Positions 67-7,257 of a stretch of DNA of 10,093 bases are shown one piece after another (the first letter of the stretch is position 1; each line of letters starts with the position of its first letter). The DNA comes from Anaerolineae bacterium (GTDB lineage: Bacteria > Chloroflexota > Anaerolineae > Aggregatilineales > Phototrophicaceae), in NCBI GenBank assembly GCA_020848855.1, contig JADLHH010000247.1:1-10093 (forward strand), read 5' to 3'. The notes under the pieces are model-generated. The model saw nothing but the letters and a program-made list of their open reading frames with translations. It had not been told where the DNA came from and made no database searches. Position numbers and translations under genes: made by a program.

Positions 67-1017
67 ATGTCGAGCGGATCTTCTACACTGACCGGGCAGC
101 TTGCCCCTTATAGCCAGGAAGCGGAAGAAGCCGTCCTCGGCGCGGTGCTGGTGAACCCGGAAGCGTTCCTCGGCGTCGCCTCGTTCCTCGCGGCGGAAGA
201 CTTCTACATTCTGCGGCACGGTTACATCTGGGAAGCGCTGGAGCGCATCAGCGACCGCAATGACCAGATCGACTACGTGACGGTGCAGGATGAGCTGCGC
301 GCCATGAACCGTCTGAACGACATCGGCGGTCCCGCTTACCTGCTGCACCTGATCAACAGCACGCCGACCTCGATCCACGCCGAAGTCTACGGGCATCTGG
401 TCGAACGCGCGGCAACGCGCCGCCGCCTGCTGGTCGCCTCCGACGAGATCAAGGCGCTGGCGATGGACGAGCAGTTGTCCATCGAAAAAGTGACCAGCGA
501 TGCCGAGTCGCGGCTGTTCCACGTCACCGAGCGCAACGTCCGGCGCGACCTCGTGCCGATGCGCGACGCCATCAACAACTATTTCGAGCGCATCGAATAC
601 CTGATCCAGCACCCGGACGAGCCGCTCGGCTTGCCGACCGGCTTCCGCGACCTCGACCAACTGCTCGGCGGCTTGCAGCGCAGCGACCTCTTAATCTTCG
701 CGGGTCGCCCGGGAATGGGAAAGTGCGTTGCCGAGGGTACGCTCATCCATACCGAGGCGGGGATTGTCCCAATCGAGACGCTCAAGCCGAGCAATGCCAT
801 CGGGCAGCTCGACGATGAAGGCGGCGTTTTCTATCCGCTCGAAATCGGCGTCCAGACACCAGTGGGCATCCGGCAAACGTCACATTTTTACGATAGCGGC
901 GTGAAGCCGACCCTTCGTCTTCAGACGCGCGGCGGGTATTCCCTCACCGGCACGCTGGTGCATCCGGTTTTGACGTTGAACCGATACGGCGAAAAGGTCT
1001 GGAAGCGGCTTTCATAA
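67..1017 (+). CDS. dnaB: Replicative DNA helicase DnaB, N-terminal half plus N-terminal intein fragment (ends at in-frame TAA)
   Basis: This is the first part of the hexameric replicative helicase that unwinds DNA at the fork and binds primase. The start at ATG 67 gives an N-terminus running quickly into LAPYSQEAEEAVLGAVL, typical of the DnaB N-terminal domain. A TTG at 31 would add 12 residues and is less likely. Residues 1 to about 170 are the N-terminal domain and linker. The RecA-type ATPase domain then begins (LPTGFRDLDQLLGGL) and reaches Walker A, GRPGMGK, at residues 213-219. The extein is interrupted there by an intein starting at Cys (724). The frame closes at TAA 1015-1017 after 97 intein codons, and the same frame resumes immediately after the stop. 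Alone, this product lacks Walker B and the rest of the motor. Removing the intein and the stop joins exteins of 219 and 234 residues into a 453-residue protein, a normal DnaB length. Confidence 0.93.
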   Translation: MSSGSSTLTGQLAPYSQEAEEAVLGAVLVNPEAFLGVASFLAAEDFYILRHGYIWEALERISDRNDQIDYVTVQDELRAMNRLNDIGGPAYLLHLINSTPTSIHAEVYGHLVERAATRRRLLVASDEIKALAMDEQLSIEKVTSDAESRLFHVTERNVRRDLVPMRDAINNYFERIEYLIQHPDEPLGLPTGFRDLDQLLGGLQRSDLLIFAGRPGMGKCVAEGTLIHTEAGIVPIETLKPSNAIGQLDDEGGVFYPLEIGVQTPVGIRQTSHFYDSGVKPTLRLQTRGGYSLTGTLVHPVLTLNRYGEKVWKRLS

Positions 1018-1986
1018 CTGGAATGTGGCGATTTCGTCGCCGTGCAGCGTCATGCAACAGTTTGGGGCGATATCACTACGCTGCCGGAGTTTCACTTCCC
1101 GTTCAACGATAACCTGCGCAGCACAAAAGTCCCTATCCTGCCAACAGAAATGACGCCAAATCTGGCGTACATATTGGGCGTGCTGGCTGGCGACGATAAT
1201 CTAACGCGCACGCATTTCGTGAGTTTCACCTCCGCCGATCCTGAGATTGTGGATGCGCTGCGCCAGTGGATCGGTGAGCTTGGACTACACCTCGCCCACA
1301 GGGAGAACTACGATTATCAAATCGGCAGTATCGTCCTGAATGCCTGGCTGAAACACATCGGGTTGAGCGGCTATGCTCACGAAAAGAAAGTGCCTGTCAG
1401 CATTCTGCGCGCCCCACAGGATTGTGTACGCTCATTTTTGCAGGGACTATTTGATACTGACGGTCACGCCGAAATCCAGAGAGGCTATATTCAGTACGTC
1501 AGCACCTCGGAAATGCTCGCCCGGCAGATACACGTTCTGCGGCTCCAGTTCGGCGTGGTCAGCAAGCTGACGTATAAGGCGAATGCGCATCGCGGCGCAT
1601 GGTGCATTCGGATTACCGGAGATGCGGCGCGGCAGTTCTATGATAACGTCGGCTTTGGTCTTGCCCGAAAGCAAAACCGCCGCGTGCTGCTGCCGCAGAC
1701 AGCTAACTCCAATCTCGACGTGATCTCGTATCTGCCCGCCAGAGTCTCAGTCATTCCCAAACGCCCTACGACGAATTACTATCGCTACTTCAGCGGCGAG
1801 CGCAGCCCATCGTATGCGGTGCTGGAGCGAATCGCCGAGTTCGCACCAGAGGTTGAGCCTTTGCGCAAGCCGCCTTTCTACTGGGACGAAATCACCCAAA
1901 TAGAAGACGCAGGGATGCAGCATTGCTACGATCTGTGCGTCCCGGAAGGACACAGCTTCACCAGCAACGGGATCGTGTCGCACAAC
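724..1986 (+). mobile_element. DnaB intein with LAGLIDADG homing endonuclease, inserted in Walker A and interrupted by one stop codon
   Basis: This is a self-splicing protein element of 421 codons including the stop. Splicing residues are all present: Cys1 at the start (CVAEGTLI), block B with the TxxH motif (T77, H80 in TGTLVHPVLT), block F ([12 protein letters not shown], from residue 401), and C-terminal His420-Asn421 followed by Thr as the +1 extein residue. The central region is a homing endonuclease with two LAGLIDADG-type motifs, LGVLAGDDN (residues 151-159) and [10 protein letters not shown] (239-248), both keeping the acidic residue, plus a KKVP element between them. It lies between Lys and Thr of the helicase P-loop. 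G+C is lower than in the host gene: by hand count 63 of 120 bases at 1081-1200, against 80 of 120 at 2341-2460 in the extein. This fits acquisition from elsewhere. Codon 98 is TAA. Confidence 0.92.
1015..1017 (+). other. In-frame TAA stop inside the dnaB intein
   Basis: The codon lies between WKRLS and [11 protein letters not shown]. That segment matches the stretch after block B in inteins, where a continuous W..L..L..GD.VAV pattern is expected. Nothing is inserted or deleted and no frame change is needed. A single base change from GAA, CAA or AAA would create it. TAA serves as an ordinary stop in this window (the loader gene ends in TAA at 4681-4683), so general recoding of TAA is unlikely. 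The next base is C, a context reported to be leakier for termination. Confidence 0.9.
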
Positions 1987-2691
1987 ACGTCCTACCTGCT
2001 CTCGGTGGCGCTGAACGCCGCGAAGCTGGGCGCGCGCATCCTGATTTTCACGATGGAAATGGGGCACGAGCAGCTTGTCCAGCGCTTCATGTCGATGGAA
2101 ACCGGCATCAATTCGCAGAAGCTGCGCACCGGGCAGTTGATGCAGCAGGAGTGGACGCGCTTTGTCGAAGCCACCGGTCGCCTCGGCAACCTGAATATCT
2201 TCATCGACGACACGCCTGCCATGACGCCCATCCAGATGCGGACGAAGTGCCGGCGCATCGCCCATGAGTATGGACTCGATCTGGTGATCGTGGACTACAT
2301 GCAGTTGATGAACGCGGGCGGCGGCTACGAGAACAACCGCGTGCAGGAGATTAGCTACATCAGCCGCAGCCTGAAGGAACTGGCGCGCGAGCTGAACGTC
2401 CCGCTGTTTTCGGCGGCGCAGTTGTCGCGCGCGGTCGAGCAGCGGCAGGACAAGCGCCCGCAGCTTTCCGACCTGCGCGAGTCCGGCTCTATCGAGCAGG
2501 ACGCCGACATCGTGATCTTCCTGTACCGCGACATCGTCTACAACGAGGCGACCGAGTTCCCGAACCGCGCCGACCTGATCGTCGCCAAGCATCGTAACGG
2601 ACCAACCGGCGTGGTATCGCTGCACTTCGAAAAATCCCTGACGAAATTTACCGATGCGCGCACTCAAACCATCGACCTGAGCGCCTTATGA
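1042..2691 (+). CDS. dnaB: Replicative DNA helicase DnaB, C-terminal half preceded by intein endonuclease and C-terminal splicing domain
   Basis: This is the continuation of dnaB in the same reading frame after the TAA at 1015-1017. The open frame actually begins at 1018. The first plausible restart codon is GTG 1042, which has only a weak G-rich stretch upstream (around 1019-1029). The first 315 codons are intein: LAGLIDADG endonuclease, then the C-terminal splicing blocks. The helicase resumes at Thr (1987) with [19 protein letters not shown], completing Walker A. It continues with [10 protein letters not shown], Walker B ([10 protein letters not shown], Asp codon at 2293), the [17 protein letters not shown] motif, [15 protein letters not shown] and the arginine-finger-like FLYR. 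The C-terminus looks complete. The ESG/SIEQ position, another known DnaB intein site, is uninterrupted here. A working helicase from this locus requires trans-splicing, stop readthrough, or that the stop is not real. Confidence 0.9.
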
Positions 2692-3395
2692 GCGACAAAT
2701 TCGACGGCTTCGCTCCCGGCAAACAGCCCACCTTCTCGATCTACAGCGCGTTCGTCAGCGACCTGCTGCCGCGCATCGACGACCTCGCCGAACTCAAAGT
2801 CACGCTGTATTTCATGTGGGCAATCCAGCAGCGCGAAGGGCGCTTCCGCTACCTGCGCCGCCGCGATTTCCTGAGCGATCCCCGCTTCATGGCGGGCTTA
2901 GCCGGGCTGGATTTCGAGCCGGGCGCGACGCTCGACGCCGCGCTGGAACGCGCCTGCGCGCGCGGCACGCTGCTGAGCATTGGGATCACACTCGGCGGGG
3001 AAACCGAGCGGCTGTACTTCATCAACACCGAACTGGGGCGTATGGCGCTCGAACAGGTGGCGCGCGGCGAGTGGCTGCCCAGCGCCAGCGACGAACCGGT
3101 CGAGATCATCCCGACGCGACCCAACGTCTACCGGCTGTACGAAGACAACATCGGACCGCTCACGCCGATGATCGCCGATACGCTCAAGGATGCCGAGCGC
3201 AGCTACCCCATGAGCTGGATCGAAGAAGCGTTCCGCATCGCCGTCGAAAGCAACGCCCGGAGCTGGCGCTTCATCCAGGTCGTGCTGGATCGCTGGCGGA
3301 CGGAAGGAAGAAAAGATGCGACCTCTGAAAGACCTGCTCAACAAGACGGACAGCGATACGTCACCGGAAAATATGCCGACTTCATCGAACACTGA
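2688..3395 (+). CDS. DnaD-domain primosome protein
   Basis: This is probably a primosomal adaptor that works with the helicase loader to bring DnaB onto DNA. It has 235 residues. Residues from about 15 to 125 look like a winged-helix-type N-terminal domain, without a motif I can name with certainty. Residues from about 145 to 208 match the DnaD C-terminal domain: [15 protein letters not shown], then [10 protein letters not shown], ending FIQVVLDRW. The last fits the YxxxIxxxW DNA-binding signature of DnaD/DnaB(Bsu) proteins with conservative changes (Phe195, Val199, Trp203). A polar tail follows. The ATG overlaps the dnaB TGA as ATGA, so translation is probably coupled. Its 3' end overlaps the loader gene by 80 bases. 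Position between DnaB helicase and a DnaC/DnaI-like loader strongly supports a primosome role. Its exact equivalence to B. subtilis DnaD is inferred. Confidence 0.85.
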
Positions 3396-4683
3396 CGATG
3401 AACTCTGCACGTTGTGCGGTCGCCCGTCGTTATGCGGCGGGCTGGGTTACGTCCGCTATGACCTGCCCGTCGATCATCCGCAGTTCGGGCAGTTGTTCCG
3501 CTGCCCCAACAGCCCCGCCGACCCGGAGCGCCTGAAACGCCTGCGGACGCTCGGCAACCTCGACGCCTTCGCCGACAAGACCTTTGCCACCTTCCGCACT
3601 GACCTGCCCATGCTGACGCCGACACAGGCGCAGTCGTTACAGGCGGCGCTGAACGCGGCGCAGGCATATGCCGCCAACCCGGACGGCTGGCTGCTGCTCG
3701 AAGGCACGTACGGCTGCGGCAAAACCCATCTGGCGGCGGCGGTCGGCAACGCGCGGCTGCAAGTCGAGGACGTGGTGCTGTTCATCACCACGCCCGACCT
3801 GCTCGACCACCTGCGCAATACCTACGGCGCCGATTCGGAACTGGGCTACGACGAGATGTTCGACCGTCTGCGCAACGCGCCGATGCTGATTCTCGACGAC
3901 CTCGGCGTCGAAAATCCCAGCGCCTGGGCGCAGGAGAAGCTGTTCCAACTGCTGAATCACCGCTACAGCCGGATGCTGCCGACGGTCATCACCACCAACG
4001 CCGACATCGACCTGCTCGACCCGCGCGTGCGCAGCCGCCTGCTGGACGACACCATCATCCATCGCATCCGCATCAGCGCGCCGGATTACCGCACGCCGGT
4101 GCAGAGCCAGCGCGACCAGCTTTCCAGCCTGCCCTTCTATGCCGGCATGACCTTCGACAATTTCGACACCCGCACCGCGCTCTCGCCCGACGACCGGCAA
4201 AACCTGGAGCGGGTTTTCGCGGCGGCGCGCAGCTACGCCCAGCAGCCGCAGGGCTGGTTCGTGCTGCTGGGCAATTACGGCAGCGGCAAAACCCATCTGG
4301 CGGCGGCGATTGCCAATGTGCAGCAGGAGCGCGGCAATCTGGTTGTGTTCATCACCGTGCCCGACCTGCTCGACCATCTGCGGACGACCTTCAGCCCCGG
4401 CTCCAGCGTGACGTTCGACCGCCGCTTCCAGACGGTGCGCAGCGTGCCGCTGCTGGTGCTGGACGACCTGAGCACCGAAAGCGCGACCATGTGGGCGAAA
4501 GAGAAGCTGTTCCAACTACTGAATCATCGCTACGTCGCCGGGCTGCCGACGGTCATCACCTCGTCCTCGACCGTCGAGAAAATCGACGAGCGCATCCGAA
4601 CCCGGTTGATGGATCGGCGGCTGTGTACCATCTTCGGCATCACCGTGCCCTCGTACACCAGCCGGACGTACCGGAACAAATAA
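3316..4683 (+). CDS. Tandem-duplicated DnaC/DnaI-type helicase loader (two AAA+ modules in one chain)
   Basis: This is predicted to load DnaB helicase onto DNA. It has 455 residues, well above the roughly 245-310 usual for DnaC/DnaI. The N-terminus has a possible zinc site (CTLC at 31-34, Cys40, His54, Cys63), as in DnaI-like loaders. Two AAA+ modules follow. Module 1 has Walker A GTYGCGKT (Lys136), Walker B LILDDLG (Asp194-Asp195), sensor-1 Asn228 in TTNAD, and RVRSRL (Arg237, 239, 241). Module 2 has GNYGSGKT (Lys325), LVLDDLS (Asp383-Asp384) and RIRTRL (Arg426, 428, 430), but Ser417 where sensor-1 Asn should be. All paired landmarks lie exactly 189 residues apart. ATG 3316 is preceded by a purine-rich GGAAGGAAG Shine-Dalgarno at 3302-3310, favouring this start despite the 80-base overlap. 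ATG 3373 is an alternative that also keeps the zinc motif. The loader family is secure. The role of two fused modules is unknown. Confidence 0.88.
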   Translation: MRPLKDLLNKTDSDTSPENMPTSSNTDDELCTLCGRPSLCGGLGYVRYDLPVDHPQFGQLFRCPNSPADPERLKRLRTLGNLDAFADKTFATFRTDLPMLTPTQAQSLQAALNAAQAYAANPDGWLLLEGTYGCGKTHLAAAVGNARLQVEDVVLFITTPDLLDHLRNTYGADSELGYDEMFDRLRNAPMLILDDLGVENPSAWAQEKLFQLLNHRYSRMLPTVITTNADIDLLDPRVRSRLLDDTIIHRIRISAPDYRTPVQSQRDQLSSLPFYAGMTFDNFDTRTALSPDDRQNLERVFAAARSYAQQPQGWFVLLGNYGSGKTHLAAAIANVQQERGNLVVFITVPDLLDHLRTTFSPGSSVTFDRRFQTVRSVPLLVLDDLSTESATMWAKEKLFQLLNHRYVAGLPTVITSSSTVEKIDERIRTRLMDRRLCTIFGITVPSYTSRTYRNK

Positions 4684-6255: not shown

Positions 6256-7257
6256 ATGACGGTTATTTATCATGACGAAGATGGCGACCTGGGCTTCCTC
6301 ACGGGAAAACGAGTGGGAATCATCGGCTATGGCAACATGGGTCGCCCGGTGGCACTCAACCTGCGCGACAGCGGTGTGCAGGTGCTGGTGAGCGAGCCGC
6401 GCCCCGAAAAACAGGCGGAAGCAACCGCCGAGGGCTTCAGTATCAGCGAGATTGAAAACGTCGTGCGCTCGGCAGAGGTGATCATGCCGCTGCTGCGCGA
6501 CGAAGCCATGCCGAAAATCTATCTGGAGCATGTCTCGCCCCATCTGCGGCGCGGGCAGGCGTTAGTATTCAGCAGCGCCTACAACCTGACCTACGGCTTC
6601 ATCGAAGCGCCGCCATTCGTGGATGTCGGGCTGGTTTCGGCGCGCACGCTCGGCGCGGCGGTTCGCGAGCGCTATCTGTCCGGCGAAGGCTACGTCAGCT
6701 TCGTCGCCGTCGCGCAGGACGCCAGCCGTCACGCCTGGGACATGGTGCTGGCGCTGGCGAAAGCGATGGGCGCGCTCAAGGGCGGCGCGATAGAAATTCG
6801 TTTCGAGCAGGAAACCGAACTCGACCTGTTCCTGCAGCAGGCAATCCTACCGATCTTCCACTACGCGGTGATCACGGCGGCGCGCCTGCTGATGGAACAC
6901 GGCTATCCCCCGGAAGCCGTATTTACCGAGTTATACATCTCCGGCGAATCGTCGGACTATCTACGACAGGCAGCGTATCACGGCTTGATGAAAGCGCTCG
7001 ACCTGCAGGGGCTGCCGGCGCAGTACGGCACGCTCAGCCGCTACGAGCGGTTCAACAGCGCCCAGTTCGAGCGGCTGATGGAGATCACGCTCGAAGAAAT
7101 CCGCAGCGGCAAATTCGCGCAGGAATGGGCAAAGGAATTCGGCGCCGACTACCCTCGGCTGCGCCAGTTGCTCAAGAATCGCAAAAATATGGATATGTGG
7201 GAACTGGAACAGCAAACGCTCGAGCTGCTGCACCAGAACAACGGATTCGGAGAGTAG
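6256..7257 (+). CDS. Ketol-acid reductoisomerase-like protein with altered active site
   Basis: This 333-residue protein has the length and layout of class I KARI (IlvC), the NADPH- and Mg-dependent enzyme of branched-chain amino acid synthesis. Residues 5-45 match the N-terminal Rossmann region: YHDEDGDLGFLTGKRVGIIGYG then NLRDSG, with GxGxxG at 24-29. The knotted helical domain is recognisable in ETELDLFLQQ (186-195) and GYPPEAVFTEL (216-226). By hand alignment the KARI motif ETDLFGEQ keeps Asp190 but its second metal ligand Glu is Gln194. The HE glutamate after the PE..YFE motif is Ser229. The substrate Ser of SNTAEYG is Gly252, and KGPG is R-T-L-G (130-133). E225 is kept. Canonical isomeroreductase activity is therefore doubtful, and a reductase/dehydrogenase on another substrate is plausible. 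No ilvB/ilvN/leu genes adjoin it. The fold is fairly secure, the function open. Confidence 0.8.
   Translation: MTVIYHDEDGDLGFLTGKRVGIIGYGNMGRPVALNLRDSGVQVLVSEPRPEKQAEATAEGFSISEIENVVRSAEVIMPLLRDEAMPKIYLEHVSPHLRRGQALVFSSAYNLTYGFIEAPPFVDVGLVSARTLGAAVRERYLSGEGYVSFVAVAQDASRHAWDMVLALAKAMGALKGGAIEIRFEQETELDLFLQQAILPIFHYAVITAARLLMEHGYPPEAVFTELYISGESSDYLRQAAYHGLMKALDLQGLPAQYGTLSRYERFNSAQFERLMEITLEEIRSGKFAQEWAKEFGADYPRLRQLLKNRKNMDMWELEQQTLELLHQNNGFGE

Follow-up and report, generated by a model that had tools for sequence, protein, structure and literature searches.

A lone in-frame stop codon inside the P-loop intein of a Chloroflexota dnaB gene: very probably a consensus error or a recent lesion

The dnaB operon and its intein

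The window analyzed here is a whole metagenome contig of 10,093 nt, on which dnaB is followed by a dnaD-like gene, a double DnaC-type helicase loader, and an acetyltransferase gene (Table 1). The identical gene order is found in the genome G072 (locus L133) and, with an intein-free dnaB, in G051 (L131), and this shared operon order indicates that the dnaB of the contig occupies a housekeeping locus. The dnaD-like protein belongs to a cluster of three sequences, with its sisters at 89-90%. In L131 the match to the loader extends along all 436 of its 436 residues (60%), in L133 along 432 of 436 (70%), and its doubled form is conserved in both. Since the dnaD-like, loader, acetyltransferase, and reductoisomerase genes match their homologues over nearly the whole length, the contig appears to be without general frame damage, the other tabulated genes being open by construction, as they were taken from the list of open reading frames.

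Table 1. Features of the dnaB operon and of the intein within it
Feature	Coordinates	Strand	Basis
dnaB frame (replicative helicase with intein), one internal stop	67..2691	+	ORF reading, Pfam
N-extein, DnaB N-terminal domain to P-loop GK	67..723	+	Pfam PF00772, 4.1e-28
Intein, 421 codons, inserted between GK and T in the P-loop, Cys1 to His-Asn	724..1986	+	Sequence; alignment with 26 relatives
N-terminal splicing region up to the TAA, 97 codons, block B TLVH at 952-963	724..1014	+	Sequence; NCBIfam intein_Nterm (21.4 bits, below the 24.5-bit cut-off)
In-frame TAA, intein codon 98	1015..1017	+	Sequence
Rest of the N-side splicing segment, 11 residues, strand FVAVQ at 1033-1047	1018..1050	+	48/48 short inteins; P0034 model strand 324-328
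GTG, first in-frame ATG/GTG/TTG past the TAA, inside the strand	1042..1044	+	Sequence
LAGLIDADG endonuclease region, limits approximate; PF14528 match at 1420-1653	1051..1872	+	Pfam, alignment
C-terminal splicing region ending SHN	1873..1986	+	NCBIfam intein_Cterm TIGR01443 (25.2 bits, cut-off 15.6)
C-extein, DnaB ATPase domain from Thr+1	1987..2688	+	PF03796, 1.8e-83
dnaD-like gene, ATG overlapping the dnaB stop (ATGA)	2688..3395	+	PF07261; synteny
Double DnaC/IstB-type helicase loader, two AAA domains (longest ORF starts at 3316; start at 3373 is our choice)	3373..4683	+	Pfam/NCBIfam; near whole-length match in L131, L133

The dnaB frame runs from ATG 67 to TGA 2689-2691 and contains a single internal stop, the TAA at codon 317 of the frame. 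Direct reading bears out the sequence-only reading on this point, which had described the frame as open save for that codon, and its limits for the intein proved exact. Both halves of DnaB had also been claimed to be unmutated, and this is borne out by Pfam: the N-extein matches PF00772 and the beginning of PF03796, and the C-extein covers the remainder of PF03796 to its end. All the splicing residues claimed for the two sides of the stop were found in the sequence, namely Cys1 (724-726), the TxxH of block B, His-Asn (1981-1986), and Thr+1 (1987-1989). The intein carries the class 1 signature (Cys/Ser1, block B TxxH, C-terminal His-Asn, and Cys/Ser/Thr+1) and, between its splicing blocks, a LAGLIDADG domain (PF14528, 7e-16) that is a predicted endonuclease; the cis precursor frame is not continuous, being interrupted by the TAA. 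The first LAGLIDADG motif reads LAGDD at 1183-1197, and its final D is G in the 26 aligned relatives. GC content at the third codon position is 0.65-0.73 in the parts of the intein and 0.85-0.86 in the exteins, as might be expected for a mobile insert.

Inteins at the DnaB P-loop (insertion site b) are described in the excerpted text of PMC6195587 (Nat Commun 2018) and likewise lie directly before the residue that serves as the +1 nucleophile. However, according to the same excerpt, Mycobacterium smegmatis DnaBi1 is a class 3 mini-intein with Ser+1, whereas the intein of the contig has Cys1, Thr+1, and an endonuclease. Closer counterparts are the long and short DnaB inteins of Anaerolineae relatives (P0002-P0029, P0034, and others), which share both the insertion site and the blocks.

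The stop codon and the splicing fold

Codon 98 of the intein had been proposed as the boundary where natural split inteins break. The TAA sits 18 codons past the block B histidine, and the endonuclease is separated from it by a further strand of the splicing domain. The segment after the TAA column is kept in 48 of 48 short inteins (140-200 residues) drawn from the relatives of both half searches, 46 of them recognized by pattern and P0034 and P0075 by eye, and matches to solved mini-inteins in a sequence search also span it. An AlphaFold model of P0034 has a mean pLDDT of 67.6 overall and of 69-93 in ten-residue blocks within the intein. In this model the residue equivalent to the TAA, 318, closes a short turn that separates strand 311-315 from strand 324-328, and the endonuclease of the long inteins has its place after residue 328. 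By the kept segment and the predicted fold, the TAA is inside the splicing fold and not at the usual split boundary, so the proposed coincidence with natural break sites does not hold.

The TAA aligns to about residue 86 of what we take to be the Ssp DnaB sequence. Reported split sites nearby in Ssp DnaB are 100 and 105, as given in the excerpted text of PMC3427171. Natural split DnaE inteins and conventional S0-type split inteins, in the excerpts of PMC3620165, PMC2664965, and PMC3427171, share with the contig an N-piece of about 100 residues, and conventional split inteins are described as breaking at the endonuclease position (PMC3620165, excerpt). The TAA does not occupy such an endonuclease or loop position, from which two pieces could rebuild the whole fold. 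The excerpted text of a review (PMC7765530) names, as the likely route to split inteins, mini-inteins whose coding region was broken. Among the papers listed in literature searches, no title or abstract opening describes a natural intein that one in-frame stop has split.

These features bear on the idea of an incipient split intein, in which an N-half (67-1014) and a C-half begun at GTG 1042 or at the CTG immediately after the TAA would splice in trans. It is favored by the spread of all catalytic residues over the two halves and by the conservation of the exteins and of both ends of the splicing domain. However, the break precedes a strand of the fold, and the C-half has no evident good start. 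There is no in-frame ATG, GTG, or TTG between the TAA and GTG 1042, and no clear ribosome site was visible by eye. Moreover, because GTG 1042 corresponds to residue 327 of P0034, within strand 324-328, a restart there loses most of the strand and drops LECGDFVA, so the earlier suggestion that it would yield a usable partner is not supported. A CTG start would be exceptional. Trans-splicing would have to follow from one nonsense change, with the C-half re-initiated at the stop and the fold broken one strand early, which we regard as extremely unlikely.

The sequence-only reading also raised the possibility of read-through at the TAA, which, if infrequent, would limit DnaB. The frame is open on both sides of the TAA, and the 100-nt stretch across it folds somewhat better than most shuffled sequences (z -1.53; 16 of 200 as good). 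However, the RNA following the TAA is not folded more strongly than its shuffled versions (z 0.56 over 100 nt and -0.17 over 50 nt), and a tRNA scan found no tRNA gene within the 10-kb contig. TAA also terminates two other tabulated genes on the contig, with no sign of recoding. RNA folding and the tRNA scan of the 10-kb contig thus give read-through no clear supporting signal, and it is very unlikely as an explanation.

Relatives, rates of change, and breaks elsewhere

The search with the C-half scored 7,999 candidates. Among the 120 matches listed are DnaB proteins that carry this long intein, and over the C-half the closest of them reaches 85% identity. By name, the closest relatives are bacteria of the Anaerolineae, Phototrophicaceae, Aggregatilineales, and Chloroflexota. 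The contig's own C-half (P0001) forms a one-sequence cluster from one contig, with no second sequence at 90% identity in the collection. The N-half (67-1014) is absent among the 120 matches listed of 1,647, though the C-half and the dnaD-like protein are in the collection. A scan of genome contigs returned 2 relatives only, and a viral scan gave only distant inteins, with about 24-33% identity among the best 80 of 146.

We aligned the dnaB product with 26 relatives of 800-900 residues that carry long inteins at the identical site. At the TAA column a residue is present in 27 of 27 aligned relatives (the 26 and one partial sequence), a count that holds partly by construction, since predicted proteins cannot contain a stop. 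Among the Anaerolineae relatives seen, an in-frame stop in the intein occurs only in the contig, a comparison resting on proteins, which are open by construction, and on 17 genomes. In the rows listed for these 17 genomes with P-loop inteins, in which stops were read through and counted, no stop was found inside the intein; the long intein is matched throughout in only 3 of them (G001, G002, and G051) and is open in all three.

A further possibility is that the TAA is one of several lesions in an intein undergoing long-term decay. The endonuclease region has 12 changes unique to the contig, 8 of them radical, compared with 2, 5, and 7 changes in P0002-P0004 (p 0.054 against the exteins; p 0.11 for the radical share), and one of the 12 alters the first LAGLIDADG motif. 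However, the endonuclease/extein branch ratio of 2.93 falls within the range of 1.24-4.63 of the other 12 relatives, and the splicing region has no excess of contig-only changes (3, p 1.0). Endonuclease decay is hinted at by the singleton counts and not upheld by the branch lengths. From these comparisons, relaxation of the endonuclease would be at most mild, with the exteins and the splicing region held, and we consider long-term decay distinctly improbable.

The terminal branch of the exteins is 0.060, compared with 0.065, 0.053, and 0.084 in P0002-P0004, on a fixed tree of 13 sequences in which the nodes between the contig's DnaB and its sisters are weakly supported (25 and 44). Both rate tests assigned the last intein residue to the C-extein, which has no material effect. 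Since the exteins evolve as in the sisters, the stop is either recent or not real, and the gene is not long dead.

As a control, we looked for stops in dnaB across the order. Of its 154 genomes, 148 gave a DnaB match, and the control covers 142 of these 148, some matches being pieces or running into contig ends. An in-frame stop occurs in one of the 142, G127, whose dnaB (L130) has no intein and carries a TAG in the ATPase domain. Lone dnaB stops therefore arise in such assemblies without anything to rescue them, and for this reason a lone stop in the intein of an essential gene, when met on a metagenome contig, says little in favor of a split intein.

Some relatives are broken near the TAA column, and these breaks lend something to the split-intein idea and count against a mere error or lesion. 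Both P0121 and P0122 leave the frame and terminate about 10 codons or less upstream of the column, and P0038, probably the other half of P0121, begins about ten codons before it. P0121 and P0038, whose contigs have the same length (237,967) and are probably one, look like two overlapping halves of a single dnaB in one relative. However, P0038 goes out of frame before the C-terminal Asn of the intein, so the pair could not trans-splice as deposited. Among P0121-P0219 (N-half search, 120 of 1,647 matches listed) there are 11 matches under 440 residues. P0129, P0195, P0125, P0124, and P0123 break elsewhere than the TAA column, in the N-extein, in other parts of the intein, or in the C-extein, and P0133, P0134, P0190, and P0197 seem to be partial records or to stop at contig ends; the frame changes are read from odd protein tails in the protein sequences. 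By a rough estimate, two of seven breaks near the column is not beyond chance, and the breaks of P0121 and P0122 speak somewhat for a weak spot there.

One of the elsewhere-broken relatives, P0125, has 356 residues and three members and ends about 30 residues past the last N-side splicing strand; its sequence would fit either a broken frame or the N-half of a natural intein split at the usual site. P0030 and P0031 carry a further intein at a later DnaB site (10-residue site).

Origin of the stop codon

We propose that the contig carries a class 1 intein at the P-loop of dnaB in an uncultured Anaerolineae-like member of the Chloroflexota, and that the working form of the gene would be one chain. 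As the conserved residues and the relatives suggest, the intein would excise itself and join K219 to Thr+1, and the TAA would have no function. The frame as deposited could not make DnaB by any demonstrated route. Very probably, then, this is an ordinary cis-splicing endonuclease intein in a housekeeping dnaB, and the TAA is either a consensus error or a recent lesion of one strain. Supporting this are the unbroken long inteins at the same site in relatives, the sister-like exteins, the position of the TAA inside the fold, the lone stop in the intein-less dnaB of G127, and the conserved operon. Error and a second dnaB had been named as the simpler alternatives in the sequence-only reading, and we judge this to be right.

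Between the two, an error of the metagenome consensus seems to us the probable source of the TAA. Counting against error, the contig has no frame damage elsewhere where homologues permit a check. Moreover, with a background rate near 1 in 142, such an error is unlikely in a random contig, but this contig was picked for its stop.

That the TAA is genuine, a recent nonsense lesion of one strain that is either tolerated through a second dnaB or doomed, is rather unlikely by comparison. As part of that reading, a second dnaB elsewhere could supply DnaB and leave the copy on the contig as a fresh pseudogene. Consistent with this, at least two PF00772 matches are found in 14 of 154 genomes of the order, among them 4 of the 17 genomes with P-loop inteins, by our own reading of matches that may include pieces of one gene, and G051 has an intein-free dnaB in the operon as well as a separate intein-bearing one. 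However, the copy on the contig belongs to the conserved operon and its exteins show no decay, and a second dnaB is quite unlikely as the explanation. If the stop is real and DnaB is still made, the contig would be a direct case of the birth of a split intein in one step.

The two dnaB genes of G051 lie on different contigs, the intein-free one in the operon (L131, contig C12) and the intein-bearing one (L132) on contig C108, where it adjoins TIR, bifunctional-nuclease, and flavodoxin genes. Downstream of the dnaB operon in the window, the ketol-acid reductoisomerase-like protein encoded at 6256-7257 (+) scores 203.9 bits against the NCBIfam ilvC cut-off of 226.15 and is perhaps a divergent relative.
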